From contig CALLUS010000004.1 in assembly GCA_938010435.1 (NCBI GenBank), positions 161,230 through 225,229 on the forward strand: a stretch of 64,000 nt of DNA, given 5' to 3'. Position numbers and translations under genes: made by a program. This document shows, piece after piece, positions 1,098-31,070 of this stretch. Positions within the stretch are counted from its first letter, which is position 1. Every line of letters starts with the position of its first letter. The notes under the pieces are model-generated. The model saw only the letters and a list, made by a program, of their open reading frames with translations, did not search any database and had not been told where the DNA came from. This stretch comes from an uncultured Rhizobiaceae group bacterium. GTDB taxonomy: Bacteria; Pseudomonadota; Alphaproteobacteria; Rhizobiales; Rhizobiaceae.

Positions 1098-2594
1098 TCA
1101 CGCTTGGTGCAAAACTGTTTCCACCCATTCACGATAGCGCTTCAAGGTCGGGTGAGCCAGAGAGCGTGCGAGATAGTCTTCCATACGTGGCAAATGTGCC
1201 AGATATGCATCTTTACCATCACGTTTCGATAAACGCACAAAAATACCCAACACTTTCGTAACCCGCTGTGCCGCCATTATGGCGTAAGCTGAACGGAATT
1301 TTTTTTCATCAAAAGGGATGCGCAACTTACAATAGTGGTCCAGTAGTTCTGTTTCCAATTGCACCGGGATATCCACACGCGCATCCTGCGCAATAGACGC
1401 CACATCGTACGACGAGGGTCCAATCAAACCGTCTTGAAAATCGATCAAGCCCGTTTGATTTGCAGCTTCTACATTTTCAATCCAAATGATGTTGGGGGAA
1501 TGATAGTCGCGCAGAACGATAGACTGTTCGCTCAACAGAACATTATCAACCAGCTCTGACCAAATATTTTGGAATTCTGAGTATTCTTGATCACTGGGCA
1601 CGCGCCCTGTTTTCCATTCAAAATACCAATCAATGAGCAGTTCAACTTCAATCAGCATTGCTTGCTTATCGAAGGGCGGTACGTGATGAATTTTCCCATT
1701 AGGAAGTTTAACTTCGTTACGCCAAACCTTGCTGTGCAATGTTGCAAGAGTTTCCATCGATACCAAATAGCGGGCCGCAATCGGCTGTCTGTTTTTATCG
1801 ATTATCTCGCCTGACCCCAAATCTTCGATCAGCAAAATGCCCTGATCTAAATCTAAATCATATATTTGGGGCACTCGAAACCCCTCTTCTTCGAGTAAAT
1901 ATGCCATACCTGCAAACGCACTCATGTCTTCGGCAAGATTTGCAATTTTGCTATATGGTTTGCCATCACGGATTGGGGGGCCATCCGGTTGAGTTGGCGC
2001 ATTCATCAAAATGACATGACTTCCATCATCACGATGCACTGTTTCATAAGCCCGGGAGGACGCATCTCCGGTCAGATGTTGACGGTGACTTTCTTTATGA
2101 CCGTGGTCATCCAAATATTTTCTCAGCACGAGGCTACGCTCGACCCGTGACACTGCATTGGCTTCGCCGGAAACCTCGATCATACGGGCATCATCTTCAC
2201 CACTTTGGGACAATGAAATTACCAGGCTCGGTGCAGGGAGATTTGACGCCGCTTTTTCAGGCCATTCAATCAGGGCTGCACCATCGGTCAATATTTCATC
2301 AATACCCAATTCGTCGAGTTCAGCCTCATATTCAATTCTGTATAAATCCAGATGTGCAAGTTGTCCCACATGCATGTCTTCATAGTTTTGCATAATCGTG
2401 AATGTGGGGCTTGGAACTTCCAAAAACTCATCCCCAGCCATGGTGCGAATAATGGCACGAGCCAAAGTGGTTTTCCCAGCGCCTAAATCGCCCACAAGCC
2501 ATACACAGTCATTACGACGCAGGGCTAATGCCAGCGTTTCACCGAAGCGCAACGTACCGGCTTCATCAGAGCAAGATATGGAGAGAAGCGTCAC
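1098..2594 (-). CDS. tsaE: Fusion of TsaE (t6A tRNA-modification ATPase) with an AmgK-like sugar phosphotransferase
   Basis: A 498-residue two-domain protein. Residues 1-150 are TsaE: P-loop GDLGAGKTT at 35-43, EVPSPTFT at 59-66, HLDLYRI at 81-87 and LIEWPEK at 108-114. TsaE is the ATPase of the TsaBDE complex that makes threonylcarbamoyladenosine 37 in tRNA. Residues of about 165-498 are an aminoglycoside-phosphotransferase-type kinase with catalytic LRDYHSPN at 361-368 and metal-binding LIDFQDGLIGPSSYD at 383-397, like AmgK, which phosphorylates MurNAc at the anomeric carbon. The fusion is a recognised arrangement in Rhizobiales. It begins 12 bases after divL and is followed by murU, so the kinase half probably serves peptidoglycan-sugar recycling. 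Confidence 0.88.
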   Translation of the reverse strand: MTLLSISCSDEAGTLRFGETLALALRRNDCVWLVGDLGAGKTTLARAIIRTMAGDEFLEVPSPTFTIMQNYEDMHVGQLAHLDLYRIEYEAELDELGIDEILTDGAALIEWPEKAASNLPAPSLVISLSQSGEDDARMIEVSGEANAVSRVERSLVLRKYLDDHGHKESHRQHLTGDASSRAYETVHRDDGSHVILMNAPTQPDGPPIRDGKPYSKIANLAEDMSAFAGMAYLLEEEGFRVPQIYDLDLDQGILLIEDLGSGEIIDKNRQPIAARYLVSMETLATLHSKVWRNEVKLPNGKIHHVPPFDKQAMLIEVELLIDWYFEWKTGRVPSDQEYSEFQNIWSELVDNVLLSEQSIVLRDYHSPNIIWIENVEAANQTGLIDFQDGLIGPSSYDVASIAQDARVDIPVQLETELLDHYCKLRIPFDEKKFRSAYAIMAAQRVTKVLGIFVRLSKRDGKDAYLAHLPRMEDYLARSLAHPTLKRYREWVETVLHQA

Positions 2595-2606
2595 TTTGGG
2601 TGAACT

Positions 2607-5129
2607 CTACTGAGCTGCTTGAGCAGTTGATGTTGATTCTGCTGCCGGTCTTTTTGGGAAACGACAAATAAAACATGTTCCCTTTTCAACGCCATCCGAG
2701 ATGGAAATATCTCCACCGTGGAGTTCAATCAAAGATTTGGCAATTGATAGACCCAAGCCTGCACCGCCACGTCCTGAGCCTTGCGTTTTTGAACTGAACC
2801 GTTGGAACACACGGGTTCGATCTTCTGGTGAAATTCCGGGACCTGAATCATGTACCTTCAAAAAGATATTGTCTGCATCAACACTGCTTTCCAATATCAC
2901 CGACCCTTTTTCCGGAGAGAACGAAATGGCATTGCTCAATAAGTTGAGCAAAACTTGTTGCACACGAGTTTCATCACCAACGAATTCTCCGTTACTGCCG
3001 ACATTCTTATCGTGACGCAAAATCAGTTTCACACCTCGTTCTTTTACCTGATCACTCACACTGCGTCCTGCAATATTCATCACCTCAAGGAGATCCAGTG
3101 ACTTTAAGTCAAGCTCCATAATGCCCGCATCGACCGTTGCCAAATCAAGTAGATTGTCAACAAGACTATGGAGCTCATTGGAGGAGGTTGAGATATAATT
3201 GACATATTCAGTTTGTTTTTCGTTCAACTTGCCAAAAGTATTTTGTTCCAAAATTTCAGCAAAGCCTTTGATATTGGTCAACGGAGCTCGGAATTCATAA
3301 GAAACATGTTCAATGAATTCGTTTTTCAAACGCTCGGCGGCCTGCAACGCTTCGTTACGCTCTTTCAATGTGTGCTCAAGATTCACACTTGCTGTCACAT
3401 CGGCAAAACTCAACATAGTTTGACCATTGGGCAAAGGCACCAGAGCATAATCGATCATTTCGCCAGTCGTTAGTTCAATACGACCGTCCATTGATTTTCG
3501 CGTGTCCGAAACGCCTGTGACACCGGTTGCCAAATCATCCCAAATTGTGGGAATGTCCATAACTCTCTTACAGAGTTTGGCGATATCACTAATAGGTGTT
3601 TCTGCAGCAACTTGCTCGTCTTCCAGTTCCCATAAATTTTGGAAAGACGGGTTAGACAATTTCATACGCCCATCGGCAGAGAACACAGCTATTGCTTCAA
3701 CAAGATGATCCAGTGTTTCCCCTTGCACTTGGGTCAATGCAATGTAACGGCTTTCCATTTCCAACTGTTCTGTGATATTTTCAAACACCCAAGTTACACC
3801 ACCTTGTTTGTGTGGGTTCGCCACAACGCGCAATGTGCGACCATCAGGAAGGTGCCACCAATGTTCTTGAGGTTGTGTCGCTTCATAAACTTCCAAAAGG
3901 CTGTTGCGCCACTTGGCCCAATCCGGTTGCTCAGCAACTTTGCGATCGGATCGAAGCATATCGAACAATGCTCCATTTTCCGGTTGCTGATCGAGGGCTT
4001 TTTCATCCAACTTCCACAGAGTATTGAAAGCTTCATTGCGGAAAACAAGATGTTTCTTCTCATCAAAAATGGCGACCGCAGACGCCAGTTGATCCATTGT
4101 CTGCGCATGACTTTCCAAAGTACGTCGCAGAACCCCTTGCGCCTCTTCAACTTCGCTCATATCCACGGCGAGACCTGCTGAACCACTGGAATAAGCAACT
4201 TCACTCACATCCATTGTCCGGCGATCGCCTAAAACCGTTGCAGGCACACGCATCCGGATTTGGCTCGGACCATCTTTAACATCAACATCGCCATGTTGTT
4301 TGGCCAACAACAAGCGTTCGCTGGCATCAAGAAGCTCAACTTCTTTATCAAGCACTTCGTCCAGCGTTTTCGTTTCAACAGCTTCTACATAGCTGTTATT
4401 TGCCCAACTCAAATGACCATTTTCGTCTTTTAACCACACTGGAAATGGTACTGCTTCCAAGAGAGATTTCATGGTGTCAGTGGTTTGTAACAATTTGGTA
4501 TGTTCAGATTCCAACGCAGCAAGCGCCGCCCGGTCTCCGGATAAGTTGATAAAGCGTACAAATGCATGACTGCCAGACGCGCGGCCCTGAGCTTCTATGA
4601 TGGAGCCCGTTTTGCTTTCAATCGTCAGGTCAAAAGCTTCAGCACTATCGCGCAGTCGATTCACTGCCTTTTCAAAGCTTTGAGCTGTTGATGGTGTCAT
4701 CCAAGTTCCAAACGCCACAAAGGCAGTTGCATCTTCAGGTGCACCCGCTTGAGCAGGAAGTGTGCCACGGCAAAGAGGGGCTTCTTCACGATTGGCCCAA
4801 ACCACGATACGTTGATCCGGCACATTAAGCAGAGCTTGCGCGCGTTCATTCCGCGCCTTTAAATCTGCAATGTCCAAGGCTTGTGTGCGATTTGTTTCAT
4901 CCAGTTTTTTACGTTCGCGGATCAACCATGTGGCTGACCACATGGCAAATGCGAAAGCTCCTGTGAAAACAATCAGCATAATCCAACTGTTTGCGATTTC
5001 GAGTTTTGGAATAAAATTAGCGAATTGTTCGGGTGTTGAGACTGCTTCTTGAGCATTGGCGGCCTGCAACGTGAGCAAAAACGCCGCAAAAGACGTCAAA
5101 AACCATGCGGATTGCCGCGATGCCATCAT
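2607..5129 (-). CDS. divL: DivL-type PAS sensor kinase with tyrosine in place of the phospho-accepting histidine
   Basis: An 840-residue protein from the chosen start, a tandem ATG pair; the open frame extends 65 codons further upstream but that part looks non-coding. It has an N-terminal signal or membrane segment (residues 4-25), a second membrane segment (48-70), a coiled stretch, at least three PAS-like repeats (about 215-580), then a kinase core. The H-box reads HVSYEFRAPLTNIKG, with Tyr at residue 611 (codon 3297-3299) where ordinary kinases have His. The ATP-binding N-box (LLNLLSNAISFS) and G-boxes (DSGPGISPED, GAGLGLSIAKS) look intact. Caulobacter DivL has the same His-to-Tyr change and works through CckA to control CtrA. 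The position beside ahcY and tsaE is also usual for the Rhizobiales homologue. Confidence 0.85.
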   Translation of the reverse strand: MMASRQSAWFLTSFAAFLLTLQAANAQEAVSTPEQFANFIPKLEIANSWIMLIVFTGAFAFAMWSATWLIRERKKLDETNRTQALDIADLKARNERAQALLNVPDQRIVVWANREEAPLCRGTLPAQAGAPEDATAFVAFGTWMTPSTAQSFEKAVNRLRDSAEAFDLTIESKTGSIIEAQGRASGSHAFVRFINLSGDRAALAALESEHTKLLQTTDTMKSLLEAVPFPVWLKDENGHLSWANNSYVEAVETKTLDEVLDKEVELLDASERLLLAKQHGDVDVKDGPSQIRMRVPATVLGDRRTMDVSEVAYSSGSAGLAVDMSEVEEAQGVLRRTLESHAQTMDQLASAVAIFDEKKHLVFRNEAFNTLWKLDEKALDQQPENGALFDMLRSDRKVAEQPDWAKWRNSLLEVYEATQPQEHWWHLPDGRTLRVVANPHKQGGVTWVFENITEQLEMESRYIALTQVQGETLDHLVEAIAVFSADGRMKLSNPSFQNLWELEDEQVAAETPISDIAKLCKRVMDIPTIWDDLATGVTGVSDTRKSMDGRIELTTGEMIDYALVPLPNGQTMLSFADVTASVNLEHTLKERNEALQAAERLKNEFIEHVSYEFRAPLTNIKGFAEILEQNTFGKLNEKQTEYVNYISTSSNELHSLVDNLLDLATVDAGIMELDLKSLDLLEVMNIAGRSVSDQVKERGVKLILRHDKNVGSNGEFVGDETRVQQVLLNLLSNAISFSPEKGSVILESSVDADNIFLKVHDSGPGISPEDRTRVFQRFSSKTQGSGRGGAGLGLSIAKSLIELHGGDISISDGVEKGTCFICRFPKRPAAESTSTAQAAQ

Positions 5130-5183
5130 TTTCCCGACCCGTTCTTTTGGCCTGAACGCAGTACAAGAGGCCTTTTGCAACAA

Positions 5184-5199
5184 TGCAATTCGAATTGCA
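5184..5199. promoter_or_regulatory. Perfect 16-bp palindrome upstream of divL
   Basis: TGCAATTCGAATTGCA is a perfect inverted repeat with no spacer, 55 bases upstream of the divL start codon. Its size and position suit a dimeric repressor or activator, but I cannot name the protein. Further TGCAA half-sites occur on both sides (near 5176 and 5211). Confidence 0.4.
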
Positions 5200-5394
5200 C
5201 CCAAACACAGTGCAAGCGATTCGTGCCAACTTAACCCAGTGGGAGTCGCGGTGCGAGTGCGATTTGTACTCCAACAGTGCAAATTCACAATCTCCGAATC
5301 AAAAACGGCCGCACGCCCCGACAAGAGACATGCGACCGTGGTATATTTACAATGGTAAACGAGGCGTTAATTCATGCCTTTTACCTTCGCGCGC

Positions 5395-26365: not shown

Positions 26366-29302
26366 TTAGTGCGCTTCGTCCCAATTGTCGGCGGCATTGG
26401 CATCAACTTGTAAAGGGACCGACAAACTAAGGGCCGGCATGGGCGCATTGACCATTACTTCTTTCACTAGGTCAATCGTTTGATCGACCTCACTTTCCGG
26501 TACCTCGAATATCAACTCATCATGAACCTGAAGCAGCATTTTTGCCGATAGGCCTGCCGCATCCAAAGCAGGTTCCATCTGTATCATCGCACGACGGATA
26601 ATATCTGCCGCTGAGCCCTGAATAGGTGCGTTAATTGCTGCGCGTTCCTGAAATGCCCGCATTTGTGGATTGCTAGACTTCATATCGGGATAGTGCGCTT
26701 TGCGGCCAAAAATAGTTTCCACATACCCATGATCTCGCGCAAACGCCTTTGTGTCATCCATATAAGTTTTGATACCGGGGAAACGTTCGAAATAGGTTTT
26801 GATATAATCGCTCGCTTCAGACCGCCCGATGCCCAAATTGTTGGCCAAACCAAACGCGGAAATGCCGTAGATAATGCCGAAATTGATCGCCTTAGCCTGA
26901 CGGCGGATCATCGGGTCCATGCCTTCCACCGGCACGTTGAACATTTCGCTGGCGGTCATAGCATGAATATCGATGCCATCGGCAAATGCCTGTTTCAGCT
27001 GGCCGATATCCGCCACATGGGCCAGCACGCGCAGTTCAATCTGGCTGTAATCAGCGCTGACCAATTTGTTGCCTTTGTCAGCTACAAATGCGGTTCTTAT
27101 TTTGCGACCTTCTTCGGTGCGGATCGGGATATTTTGCAAATTGGGTTCAGATGATGACAACCGGCCCGTCGATGTGGAGGCCATAGAATATGATGTGTGA
27201 ACGCGTTTGGTTTGCGGATTTATGTATCCCGGCAATGCATCTGTGTAAGTGGATTTCAGTTTGGACAATTGCCGCCAATCGACAATCTTGCGGGGCAATT
27301 CATGGCCTTCAGCGGCCAAATCTTCCAATTGTTGTGCACCGGTGGCCCATTGCCCCGTCTTGGTTTTTTTGCCACCGGGAAGAGACATTTCATCAAACAG
27401 GATTTCGCCCAATTGTTTAGGAGAACCAACGTTAAATTTCCGGCCCGCAAGTTCGTAAATCTCGTCTTCCAGACCCGCCGCTTTTTGCGCAAAATCTCCA
27501 GACAAGCGCGACAGAATTTGACGGTCCACCGAAATACCCCGTGCTTCCATGCGGCAAATCACGTCCACCAACGGGCGTTCCAAACGTTCGTAAACCGTGA
27601 CCATTTTTTCAGTCACCAAACGTGCTTTCAAAACTTGCCACAGGCGCAAGGTCACATCAGCATCTTCGGCGGCATAAGCGGTGGCTTTATCCACCGCTAC
27701 TTTGTCAAACGTGATCATGGATTTGCCGCTACCCGCTATTTCTTTAAACGGGATTGGCGTATGGCCTAAAATGCTCTCAGATAACGTGTCCATGCCGTGT
27801 TTCGTGCGACCAGCATCCAACACATAAGACAGCAACATTGTGTCATCATAAGGAGCGACTTTGATGCCGTAACGATTTAGAACCTGATAATCATATTTGA
27901 TATTCTGAGCGATTTTCAAAACACGAGGCGCTTCCAGCAACACTTTCAAACGATCAAGCGCATCCCGTGTGGAAATCTGATCAGGGTCCAAACCACCTCC
28001 CAGCAAATCGTCTTCACCGGTTACGTGAATTAATGGAATATAACATGCTTTTACCGTGCCGTCGGCGAGGGCAATTGCGAGTGAAACACCCACTAAATCG
28101 GCCTGCATGACATCCAGTGAATTGGTTTCTGTATCAACCGCAACCACCCCAAGTTCTGTCGCGTCTGCAATCCATCGGTCGAGTGCGACCACGTCCCGAA
28201 CGGTTTCATAGTTTGAGTTGTCAATTTTCGCAGTTGCCGCATCGTTCAAACGATCATTGACCAAATCTTGCGGTTGAAATGCAGGGCCGTCACCACGGGG
28301 TTCATCACCGCTCATGGGATCATCTGTGTTATTAGAACCGGGGTCGAAATCAGGACCACGTTGTTCGTATCCATCAACATCCATCGTGCTGGCTTCAATT
28401 GCGGCAGCATCTGTTTCCGTTTCTGCAGCCACACGACGGGTCAGCGTGTTCAGCTCCAGCGCTTTTAAGAACGCGATCAATTTTGGGCCATTCAATTCGG
28501 TCAACGCCATGTCGTCCAATGGCAAATCGATAGGCGTGTTTTGATCCAGCGTCACAAGCTGTTTAGAAATGCGAGCTTGGTCTGCAAACTCAATCATATT
28601 TTCACGGCGTTTGTTTTGTTTGATTTCACCTGCGCGCTCTAAAAGTTCTTCCAGCGTGTTGTATTCTTCCAACAATTGCGCAGCTGTTTTGGGGCCAATG
28701 CCCGGAACGCCTGGAACATTGTCTGTAGAATCTCCCGCCAACGCTTGAAGATCGATCATTTTTTCAGGGCCAACCCCAAACTTCTCGACAACTTCATCAA
28801 TGCCCACACGTTTGTCTTTCATCGTGTCATACATAATGACTTGCGGACTCACGAGCTGCATCAAGTCTTTATCAGACGAAATGATTGTCACATCAGCACC
28901 CAGTTCAGCGGCTTGACGCGCGTAAGTGGCAATCAAATCATCAGCTTCAAAACCAGCCTTTTCAATACATGGAACATCAAAAGCACGGGTGGCCTCACGA
29001 ATGACAGCAAATTGCGGACGCAAGTCTTCAGGGGGTGCATCACGGTTGGCTTTGTATTCAGGATAAATTTCATTTCTGAACGTGGTGGACGAATGGTCGA
29101 AGATCACGGCAAAGTGAGACGGCACAACACCCAGATTGGTATCACGCGCTTCCTGCAGCAGCTTCCAGAGCATGTTGCAAAAACCCGACACCGCGCCAAT
29201 GGGCAAACCATCGGATTTTCGTGTCAGTGGTGGCAATGCATGATAGGCGCGGAAAATATATGCCGAACCGTCTACCAGAAAAAGGTGATCGCCCTGTTTC
29301 AT
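26366..29302 (-). CDS. polA: DNA polymerase I
   Basis: A 978-residue enzyme with all three activities, for Okazaki-fragment processing and excision repair. The 5-prime nuclease domain opens with LVDGSAYIFRAYHALPPL and has DDLIATYA and DSTDNVPGVPGIGPKTA. The 3-prime proofreading domain keeps VAVDTETNSLD and YAAEDADVTLRLW. The polymerase has motif A VSADYSQIELRVLAH, motif B RRQAKAINFGIIYG and motif C LLQVHDELIFEVP. The linker between the nuclease domains (about 290-350) is acidic and rich in Asp, Gly and Pro. It is divergent from the M20 peptidase gene, with a small RNA candidate in the gap. Confidence 0.97.
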   Translation of the reverse strand: MKQGDHLFLVDGSAYIFRAYHALPPLTRKSDGLPIGAVSGFCNMLWKLLQEARDTNLGVVPSHFAVIFDHSSTTFRNEIYPEYKANRDAPPEDLRPQFAVIREATRAFDVPCIEKAGFEADDLIATYARQAAELGADVTIISSDKDLMQLVSPQVIMYDTMKDKRVGIDEVVEKFGVGPEKMIDLQALAGDSTDNVPGVPGIGPKTAAQLLEEYNTLEELLERAGEIKQNKRRENMIEFADQARISKQLVTLDQNTPIDLPLDDMALTELNGPKLIAFLKALELNTLTRRVAAETETDAAAIEASTMDVDGYEQRGPDFDPGSNNTDDPMSGDEPRGDGPAFQPQDLVNDRLNDAATAKIDNSNYETVRDVVALDRWIADATELGVVAVDTETNSLDVMQADLVGVSLAIALADGTVKACYIPLIHVTGEDDLLGGGLDPDQISTRDALDRLKVLLEAPRVLKIAQNIKYDYQVLNRYGIKVAPYDDTMLLSYVLDAGRTKHGMDTLSESILGHTPIPFKEIAGSGKSMITFDKVAVDKATAYAAEDADVTLRLWQVLKARLVTEKMVTVYERLERPLVDVICRMEARGISVDRQILSRLSGDFAQKAAGLEDEIYELAGRKFNVGSPKQLGEILFDEMSLPGGKKTKTGQWATGAQQLEDLAAEGHELPRKIVDWRQLSKLKSTYTDALPGYINPQTKRVHTSYSMASTSTGRLSSSEPNLQNIPIRTEEGRKIRTAFVADKGNKLVSADYSQIELRVLAHVADIGQLKQAFADGIDIHAMTASEMFNVPVEGMDPMIRRQAKAINFGIIYGISAFGLANNLGIGRSEASDYIKTYFERFPGIKTYMDDTKAFARDHGYVETIFGRKAHYPDMKSSNPQMRAFQERAAINAPIQGSAADIIRRAMIQMEPALDAAGLSAKMLLQVHDELIFEVPESEVDQTIDLVKEVMVNAPMPALSLSVPLQVDANAADNWDEAH

Positions 29303-29469
29303 ATCAGGCCTTCGAAGTGCTTTGGAATGATTGGGTTTACGATGGCCAAGCGTTGCTACTTTTACAAGTCTTGGCTCACGAAGCCCTCAACTAATTGTCA
29401 AAACGAGTTGTAATGTTTTGGCCTTGAAAAAGCCGGTTTCAGAAACCATCTTCTAGACAAGCCAAAGAC

Positions 29470-29614
29470 GTAATGGCTCGCCAGAGTGAACATTTCCCCC
29501 AATAGTTCACTCATAGGCAGTTGTGACCACCCCTTTCCCCTCTCCTGAGGTGGTTATAGCGAAACGTCCTGAGCTCCAGTGGTCTTCGAGTAAAAGACTT
29601 CTGGAGCTCTTTTT
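29470..29614 (+). ncRNA. Candidate small RNA with two C-rich hairpin loops, between polA and the M20 peptidase gene
   Basis: The 385-base gap between two divergent genes contains no open frame but does contain a strong plus-strand intrinsic terminator, which neither neighbour needs. Upstream of it are GAGTGAAC/GTTCACTC (29484-29512, 8-base perfect stem, loop with CCCCC) and ACCACC/GGTGGT (29526-29554, extendable to 8 pairs, 17-base loop CCTTTCCCCTCTCCTGA). Pyrimidine-rich loops followed by a terminator are the hallmark of small RNAs that pair with ribosome-binding sites. The 5-prime end is uncertain; a GGTTT/AAACC hairpin near 29430-29442 could belong to the promoter region or transcript. No convincing promoter is visible. 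Confidence 0.65.
29571..29614 (+). terminator. Strong intrinsic terminator ending the small RNA candidate
   Basis: GAGCTCCAG (29571-29579) pairs with CTGGAGCTC (29601-29609), a perfect 9-base stem whose interior holds a further GTCTT/AAGAC pairing. Five T follow, then ATTT. It lies 73 bases upstream of the M20 peptidase start, pointing toward it, so it ends a transcript begun within the polA-M20 gap. Confidence 0.88.
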
Positions 29615-29687
29615 ATTTCCATGGGTTCTTTCACGACCTCTCCGCAGTTGGTATTAAAAGAAAACTTGTTTTGAATACGGACCCGAT

Positions 29688-31070
29688 ATGAGCGCGCTTG
29701 ATCAGACTCTTTCTAAAATCGATACCAATATGGACGGTGCGTTAGAGCGCCTGTTCGAACTGTTAAAAATCGAAAGTGTTTCCACTGATCCTGCCTACAA
29801 AGCTTCCTGTACCAAAGCAGGACAATGGTTGGTCGATGAGCTGAATTCGTTGGGTTTTGATGCCAGCTTGCGTGAAACACCTGGCCACCCGATGGTCGTA
29901 GCGCATCATGAAGGGCCAGAAGGAGCTCCTCACGTCCTCTTTTATGGTCATTATGATGTACAGCCAGTGGACCCAATTGAACTTTGGGACACAGCGCCAT
30001 TTGAGCCAACATTGAAAGAAGTCAACGGCGCAAAACGAATTTACGCCCGTGGGTCATCTGACGACAAAGGCCAGTTGATGACTTTCGTGGAAGCCTGTCG
30101 GGGTTGGAAAGAAGCAACAGGCGCGTTGCCATGCCGTGTGACCATTTTGTTTGAAGGTGAGGAAGAATCCGGATCACCTTCACTTGTGCCGTTTTTGGAA
30201 GCCACTGCTGAGGAATTAAAGGCAGACATCGCGCTGGTCTGTGACACAAACATGTGGGATGCGAATACGCCGGCTATAACCACCGCATTGCGCGGTATGG
30301 CCAGCGACGAAGTCACCATCCACGCAGCCAGCAGGGACCTTCATTCAGGTTATTATGGTGGAGCGGCGCAAAATCCGATTCATGTATTGTCTAAAATTCT
30401 GGCAGATATGCACGATGAATCCGGTGCTGTGACGCTTGAAGGTTTTTACGATGGAGTTGAAGAAACACCCGATGGCATCAAACAGATGTGGGCTGGCCTT
30501 GGGTTTTCTGCCAAAGATTTCTTAGGGGACATTGGCTTATCCATGCCTTCAGGCGAAGCCAATCGCTCTGTTCTCGAACAGACATGGGCGCGCCCAACTG
30601 CAGAGGTGAATGGCATTACCGGCGGCTATACGGGCGAAGGTTTCAAAACCGTCATCGCCGCGCAAGCCTCCGCAAAAGTGTCATTTCGTCTGGTAGGGAA
30701 ACAAGATCCTCACAAAGTGGCTGAAGCGTTTAGAAAACACATCAATGATCGTTTACCGGAGGATTGCACGGCCACATTTAAAGAGCATGGCCGTAACCCT
30801 GCAACACAATTGGATTACAACCTACCTGAATTAAAAAAAGCTGCTGATGCTTTGACAGCTGAATGGGGCAAAGATGCCGCTATCATTGCAGGCGGTGGTT
30901 CTATCCCGATCGTTGGAAATTTTAAACGTCAGCTTAGCATGGATTCGCTTCTGATTGGTTACGCCCTTGCAGACGATGCTATTCATTCACCCAATGAAAA
31001 ATATGAATTGAAAAGCTTCCAGAAAGGGGCCCGCTCATGGGCACGCGTGCTTGAAGCATTGGCGCAATAA
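29688..31070 (+). CDS. M20-family metallopeptidase (dipeptidase)
   Basis: A 460-residue cytosolic zinc hydrolase. Metal and catalytic motifs are YGHYDVQPV (His88, Asp90), RGSSDDKGQ (Asp125) and FEGEEESGSPS (Glu158/159), with a dimerisation insert in the middle (RDLHSGYYGG, TGGYTGEG) and a final His ligand in DDAIHSPNEKY. The family includes carnosine dipeptidases and related peptidases; the exact substrate cannot be read from sequence. It is a single gene that converges on the acyltransferase gene with a 3-base gap. Confidence 0.9.
   Translation: MSALDQTLSKIDTNMDGALERLFELLKIESVSTDPAYKASCTKAGQWLVDELNSLGFDASLRETPGHPMVVAHHEGPEGAPHVLFYGHYDVQPVDPIELWDTAPFEPTLKEVNGAKRIYARGSSDDKGQLMTFVEACRGWKEATGALPCRVTILFEGEEESGSPSLVPFLEATAEELKADIALVCDTNMWDANTPAITTALRGMASDEVTIHAASRDLHSGYYGGAAQNPIHVLSKILADMHDESGAVTLEGFYDGVEETPDGIKQMWAGLGFSAKDFLGDIGLSMPSGEANRSVLEQTWARPTAEVNGITGGYTGEGFKTVIAAQASAKVSFRLVGKQDPHKVAEAFRKHINDRLPEDCTATFKEHGRNPATQLDYNLPELKKAADALTAEWGKDAAIIAGGGSIPIVGNFKRQLSMDSLLIGYALADDAIHSPNEKYELKSFQKGARSWARVLEALAQ

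Follow-up and report, generated by a model that had tools for sequence, protein, structure and literature searches.

A small RNA gene between polA and an M20 peptidase gene as a diverged ortholog of the rhizobial αr7 locus

The gap between the divergent genes polA and an M20 family peptidase gene, within a 64-kb stretch of Rhizobiaceae DNA (hereafter, the window), carries a small RNA gene that is almost certainly the αr7 ortholog of this genus, in a diverged form; in S. meliloti the gene is known as SmrC7, sra03 or SmelC023. The RNA is not newly discovered, because αr7 is already known at the same place in rhizobia and their relatives. From the perspective of the family, the polA-linked αr7 reaches further in the Rhizobiaceae than the Rfam model detects, with the loops kept and most of the stem bases changed. 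Additionally, the window copy and its close relatives supply αr7 with a second covarying sequence set, a heat-shock-type promoter that is conserved, and a possible pseudoknot open to testing.

The gene, its hairpins and its promoter

The features of the locus are collected in Table 1. The coordinates given for the gap, the terminator and the C-rich loops in the initial annotation, which was made from the sequence alone, were all correct when checked, and the orphan terminator that it described, with a 9-base stem and a U-tract, was confirmed both by the sequence and by folding. The longer of the two C-rich stretches coincides exactly with the loop of H3, the second of the two hairpins then proposed. 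The transcript, which had been put at 110-150 bases, is probably a little longer (about 157 nt, taking the start from the promoter). The further statement that the gap holds no open frame is true only loosely, as nine frames of at least 20 aa overlap it; the longest frame starting within the gap has 44 aa (29523-29657, GTG start), and a 245-aa frame antisense to polA extends into it to 29413.

Table 1. Features of the polA-M20 gap and its surroundings (positions in the window)
Feature	Position	Strand	Description
polA	26366-29302	-	divergent neighbour
Intergenic gap	29303-29687		between polA (-) and the M20 gene (+); checked against the sequence
RpoH (sigma-32)-like promoter	29423-29452	+	CTTGAA 29423-29428, 17 bases, CCATCTT 29446-29452
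Small RNA gene, diverged ortholog of αr7 locus	29458-29614	+	about 157 nt; start predicted from the promoter, 3' end at the U-tract
Hairpin H1	29460-29478	+	stem AGCCA/TGGCT; GACGT 29467-29471 in loop; stem covaries in the genus
Hairpin H2	29484-29512	+	CCCCC 29496-29500 in loop
Hairpin H3	29520-29560	+	12-pair stem; 17-base loop CCTTTCCCCTCTCCTGA 29532-29548
Linker ACGTC	29564-29568	+	complementary to GACGT of the H1 loop; possible pseudoknot
Intrinsic terminator	29571-29618	+	9-base perfect stem, GAGCTCCAG 29571-29579 with CTGGAGCTC 29601-29609, then TTTTTATTT
M20 family peptidase gene	29688-31070	+	downstream neighbour, usual gap arrangement

Folding of the plus strand over 29475-29616 yields -56.8 kcal/mol (z -6.99), a value that none of 200 shuffles equalled, and the complementary strand of the same segment folds well too (z -4.37). 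A simple scan of 29200-29800 returned neither terminators nor sigma-70 promoters; it missed the terminator because its loop limit is 8 bases.

The RpoH consensus is CTTGAA-N17-CCANAT. The related pattern CTTGAA-N16-18-CCAnnTT, with at most two mismatches, precedes the RNA in all ten genus sequences searched, and the window copy matches it exactly with N17. Across the family, CTTGA[AT] lies upstream of all 48 matches to the genus model described below, in a 150-base search stretch with no shuffled control. Sites as good as that of the window copy (10 of 11 positions) number seven in the 64-kb window on both strands, its own included, so the case for this promoter rests on conservation and position. 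The genome of the window holds two rpoH matches above the model cut-off. Published data on relatives describe several sigma factors: RpoD and RpoH1/2 are listed for SmelC023 (PMC7143759), the 2007 papers on S. meliloti give a sigma-70 signal or none at the promoter of the gene (PMC2245857, PMC2780559), and R. etli ReC06 is reported to increase under heat shock and to carry putative promoters resembling those of RpoE and RpoH (PMC4167512).

Conservation and covariation in the genus

When 61 genomes, that of the window among them, were searched at the DNA level, there was a single close match (G013, 85%), followed by four short matches from the same genus with E of 3.3e-5 or lower, each of them lying over the H3 region. 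The RNA is present in the same divergent polA/M20 gap in nine genomes of the genus, counting the window's own, and all genus genomes that entered the alignments have polA and M20 on a single contig in divergent orientation. Nine genus sequences make up alignment A1; G003 was left out of it as diverged and kept in the promoter search.

RNAalifold assigned 30 pairs to A1, and for 22 of these one sequence or more had both bases changed. When a structure of 36 named pairs was scored over the same nine sequences, 90.7% of the cells were paired (shuffled mean 78.9%), and both-side changes occurred in 23 of the 36 pairs, a count with a shuffled mean of 12.2 that none of 500 shuffles reached. Slid controls gave 35.2-45.3% of cells paired and a covariation score of at most 0.165, as against 0.526 for the structure itself, a comparison that favours the structure because it was derived from these sequences. 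The weakest covariation measure, further pair types, was matched by 19 of 500 shuffles. As regards the single elements, 92.6% of cells are paired in the H1 stem and 92.5% in that of H3, where both-side changes affect 9 of 12 pairs and the loop core is retained, and the terminator has 10 of 13 pairs altered on both sides. H2 has no covariation score because MAFFT did not line it up; it appears, to varying extent, when the nine genus sequences are folded singly. Given this conservation of paired cells and both-side changes, a chance origin is very unlikely, and loops that stay constant while stems vary are what would be expected of a working RNA. The initial proposal of an independent small RNA gene on the plus strand, having a terminator of its own and a pair of C-rich loops, is supported, and both loops are conserved in the nine genus sequences.

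The H3 core CCCCTCTCCTGAGG is exact in eight genus genomes and carries one change in G011 and two in G003. With up to two changes allowed, the core is found in 10 of the 15 genus genomes; its uniqueness is a weak statement, because the reversed-pattern control also gave one match. Among the other five, G012 has no room for the RNA (gap of about 148 bases), neither polA nor M20 could be matched in G006 and G008 (77% and 61% complete), and in G014 (0.9 Mb) the M20 search was negative. The M20-polA gap of G005 (locus L049) holds CTTGAA-N17-CCATCT, a small hairpin with the loop CCATCCCCCTCCAG and a strong terminator, which perhaps represent a reduced αr7 undetected by the genus model.

Relation to αr7 and to other rhizobial RNAs

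In S. meliloti, C7/SmrC7 sits between polA and SMc02851 (PMC2780559), and the same gene is sra03 (PMC2245857) and SmelC023 (PMC2873474, PMC3927594); this member was first reported in 2007. The published family description assigns R. etli ReC06 to αr7, puts every member except one next to DNA polymerase I, and depicts four hairpins, the middle two with highly conserved loops on compensating stems (PMC3927594), while sra03 was described with three long hairpins and a strictly conserved 15-nt central loop (PMC2245857). SmrC7 is reported to be up about 13-fold in nodules and to be processed from 148-150 to 106 nt (PMC2780559). The window copy follows the family rule (PMC3927594) of lying beside DNA polymerase I, and it has the four hairpins, the two conserved middle loops on covarying stems (H2 by folding only) and the 3' terminator. 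It shares with αr7 (RF02342; SmrC7, sra03, SmelC023 and ReC06) the place next to polA and the strand, the order H1, H2, H3 and terminator, an H2 loop with CCCC, the H3 core CCCCUCUCC, a CTTGAA-type promoter and a length near 150 nt. In contrast, the stems are almost wholly different, the score is below the Rfam cut-off, and the H1 loop is GACGC/GACGU with a complementary linker. The H3 loop also differs, as it runs on as CUGAGG where αr7 usually has GGG (CCCCUCUCCUGAGG in the window RNA, CCCCUCUCCGGG in most relatives).

The initial annotation had rightly advised a test of the Rfam alpha-r families, the locus being that of αr7 (RF02342). Loci around the M20 gene were gathered from named genomes (80 kept of at least 593), and these relatives put the window in the Rhizobiaceae sensu lato; viral contigs searched with the M20 protein gave no match. 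The Rfam search covered 20 of the 80 Rhizobiaceae loci: in 13 of the 20, αr7 was called upstream of M20 on the same strand. R1, a model built solely from the nine genus sequences, matches 48 of the 80, each time upstream of M20 on its strand (E 9.5e-7 to 0.065), and overlaps 11 of the 13 Rfam calls; the exact core CCCCUCUCC is found in the window copy and in 46 of the 48 matches. R1 gave no match in the other 32 of the 80 loci, L157 and L111 among them despite their αr7 call. In whole genomes, αr7 exceeded the Rfam gathering cut-off (60 bits) in 12 of 61, in 11 of these between polA and M20; the twelfth match (G028) adjoins M20, with polA elsewhere on the contig. The αr7 model gave no match to the window gap up to E 10 and none at E 1 in any of the 15 genus genomes, a threshold at which it also responds in 3 of 14 control genomes, never above cut-off. 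When 11 genus loci (47.6 kb, G012 left out) were scanned permissively at E 10, there were three hits: two to αr7, located exactly on the RNA of G010 (27.4 bits) and G013 (23.1 bits), and a third due to chance. Because the Rfam cut-off is not reached, the RNA is termed a diverged ortholog of the αr7 locus and not a member of RF02342 as modelled. Wider searches with R1 under a stricter filter found 6 of 394 family genomes at E 0.01 and, at E 0.001, one of 385 genomes of the class, namely that of the window. One of the six, G329 (locus L103), was judged false, as its match straddles the junction between two protein genes and no polA was seen in the 3.1-kb locus. Alignment A2 extends the comparison to 22 sequences (G004, a near copy of G002, left out), and there RNAalifold retained only H1 and the terminator (17 pairs), because MAFFT fails to line up the H2 and H3 stems across the family; family-wide homology in A2 rests on loops, order and place.

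Three relatives show particular arrangements. The region upstream of M20 in L050 (G024) combines an H2-like hairpin, whose loop has CCCCC, with a terminator-like stem and an H3-like hairpin that lacks the usual loop core, and αr7 may be decaying or changing there. In L104, from a Rhizobiaceae MAG, a repeat block of about 50 bases with CTTGCGAG..GCAAAGCCTCACGTGC flanks the αr7-like RNA on both sides (around 2000-3000). In L136 of Agrobacterium arsenijevicii, Rfam αr14, αr35 and the C1_109596F thermometer lie within 1 kb (4455-5378), with αr7 2-3 kb away.

Other rhizobial RNAs resemble the window RNA in part. The αr14 or cuckoo RNAs (NfeR1, SmelA075, SmelA099) are described as having several hairpins and anti-Shine-Dalgarno-type C-rich loops, but they lie at another locus and carry CCUCCUCCC in each loop. 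The cuckoo-type kinship raised in the initial annotation did not hold, CCUCCUCCC being absent from 29303-29687, and the αr14 model gave no match to the gap up to E 10. A DapZ hit with E 5.8, scoring 14.9 bits where the cut-off is 56, is at chance level. PmaR of Agrobacterium likewise has an accessible C-rich loop, which binds mRNAs, although it is one long spoon-like hairpin at another locus, reported in its description solely from Agrobacterium and one Rhizobium strain (PMC6234868).

It could be argued that an unrelated RNA replaced αr7 at this locus in the genus, as the αr7 model misses the window copy and RNAalifold kept only H1 and the terminator in the 22-sequence alignment. The order of parts, the loop core CCCCTCTCC and the form of the promoter are nevertheless all shared with αr7, and the weak reciprocal model hits fall at the same place, which makes replacement very improbable. 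To a similarly small degree, the RNA might act in cis on the M20 gene as a leader or attenuator, since it lies upstream on the same strand with a terminator ahead of the gene; against this, the distance from RNA to M20 varies from about 0.1 kb to more than 2 kb in named relatives, a MarR-type regulator gene is described beside the RNA in Rhizobiaceae (PMC3927594), and S. meliloti makes a discrete RNA of 148-150 nt (PMC2780559). An mRNA for a small peptide is less credible still: the 44-aa frame exists and has a GTG start, yet it reads through the terminator, and the genus alignments show many indels of one or two bases as well as paired stem changes.

Predicted mode of action and targets

For the αr7 ortholog, the explanation that we regard as probable is a stress-transcribed RNA whose C-rich loops pair with translation-start regions. 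RpoH, perhaps together with the housekeeping sigma factor, would transcribe the gene under stress, a step suggested by the promoter and by the data on relatives. The RNA, of about 157 nt and ending at its own terminator, may undergo the cleavage behind H1 that is reported for SmrC7. The loops of H2 and H3 would then pair with G/A-rich translation-start regions of several mRNAs, mostly repressing them. This pairing step, proposed by analogy to αr14 and from the conservation of the loops, seems likely; anti-Shine-Dalgarno loop pairing has been demonstrated for NfeR1, a different RNA of the αr14 family. An αr7 ortholog acting mainly through protein binding at its C-rich loops, as a sponge or cofactor, would equally fit two short, nearly fixed loops on variable stems, and no mRNA target was found in the literature. 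We consider it unlikely, as the related rhizobial RNAs with C-rich anti-Shine-Dalgarno loops (αr14/NfeR1) are described as pairing and the H2 and H3 loops differ from each other in sequence and length.

Within the pairing explanation, the H1 loop, with GACGC or GACGU, is able to pair with the GCGUC or ACGUC of the linker in all nine genus sequences. Four of the five pairs are invariant and one goes from C-G through U-G to U-A; the pseudoknot is treated as hypothetical because this variation is a single change, between two close genomes (G013 and that of the window). Possibly, though we hold it doubtful, αr7 in the genus is a compact switch in which the pseudoknot presents both C-rich loops together, with the H3 loop retuned to CUCUCCUGA for new targets. 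If so, processing downstream of H1 of the kind described for SmrC7 would disrupt the pseudoknot and alter activity.

The literature searched on αr7 function gave no tested or established target, and the only one suggested for sra03 is zapA (PMC2245857). This candidate was set aside: over 14 genus genomes, with uncurated gene starts, the loop paired with it no better than shuffled loops (25-99 of 100 shuffles as good). A strict search of the window's own genome for GGAGAGGGG close before an ATG found it at two sites (three rows), of which one precedes a long open frame, and these sites are a target lead only. On the minus strand of L198, near 1500, GGAGAGGGG stands 17 bases ahead of the start codon (ATG) of an open frame at least 501 aa long. 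This frame, a possible target through exact pairing, starts MLKGNRKALEQ, which we take to be an adhesin-like N-terminus.
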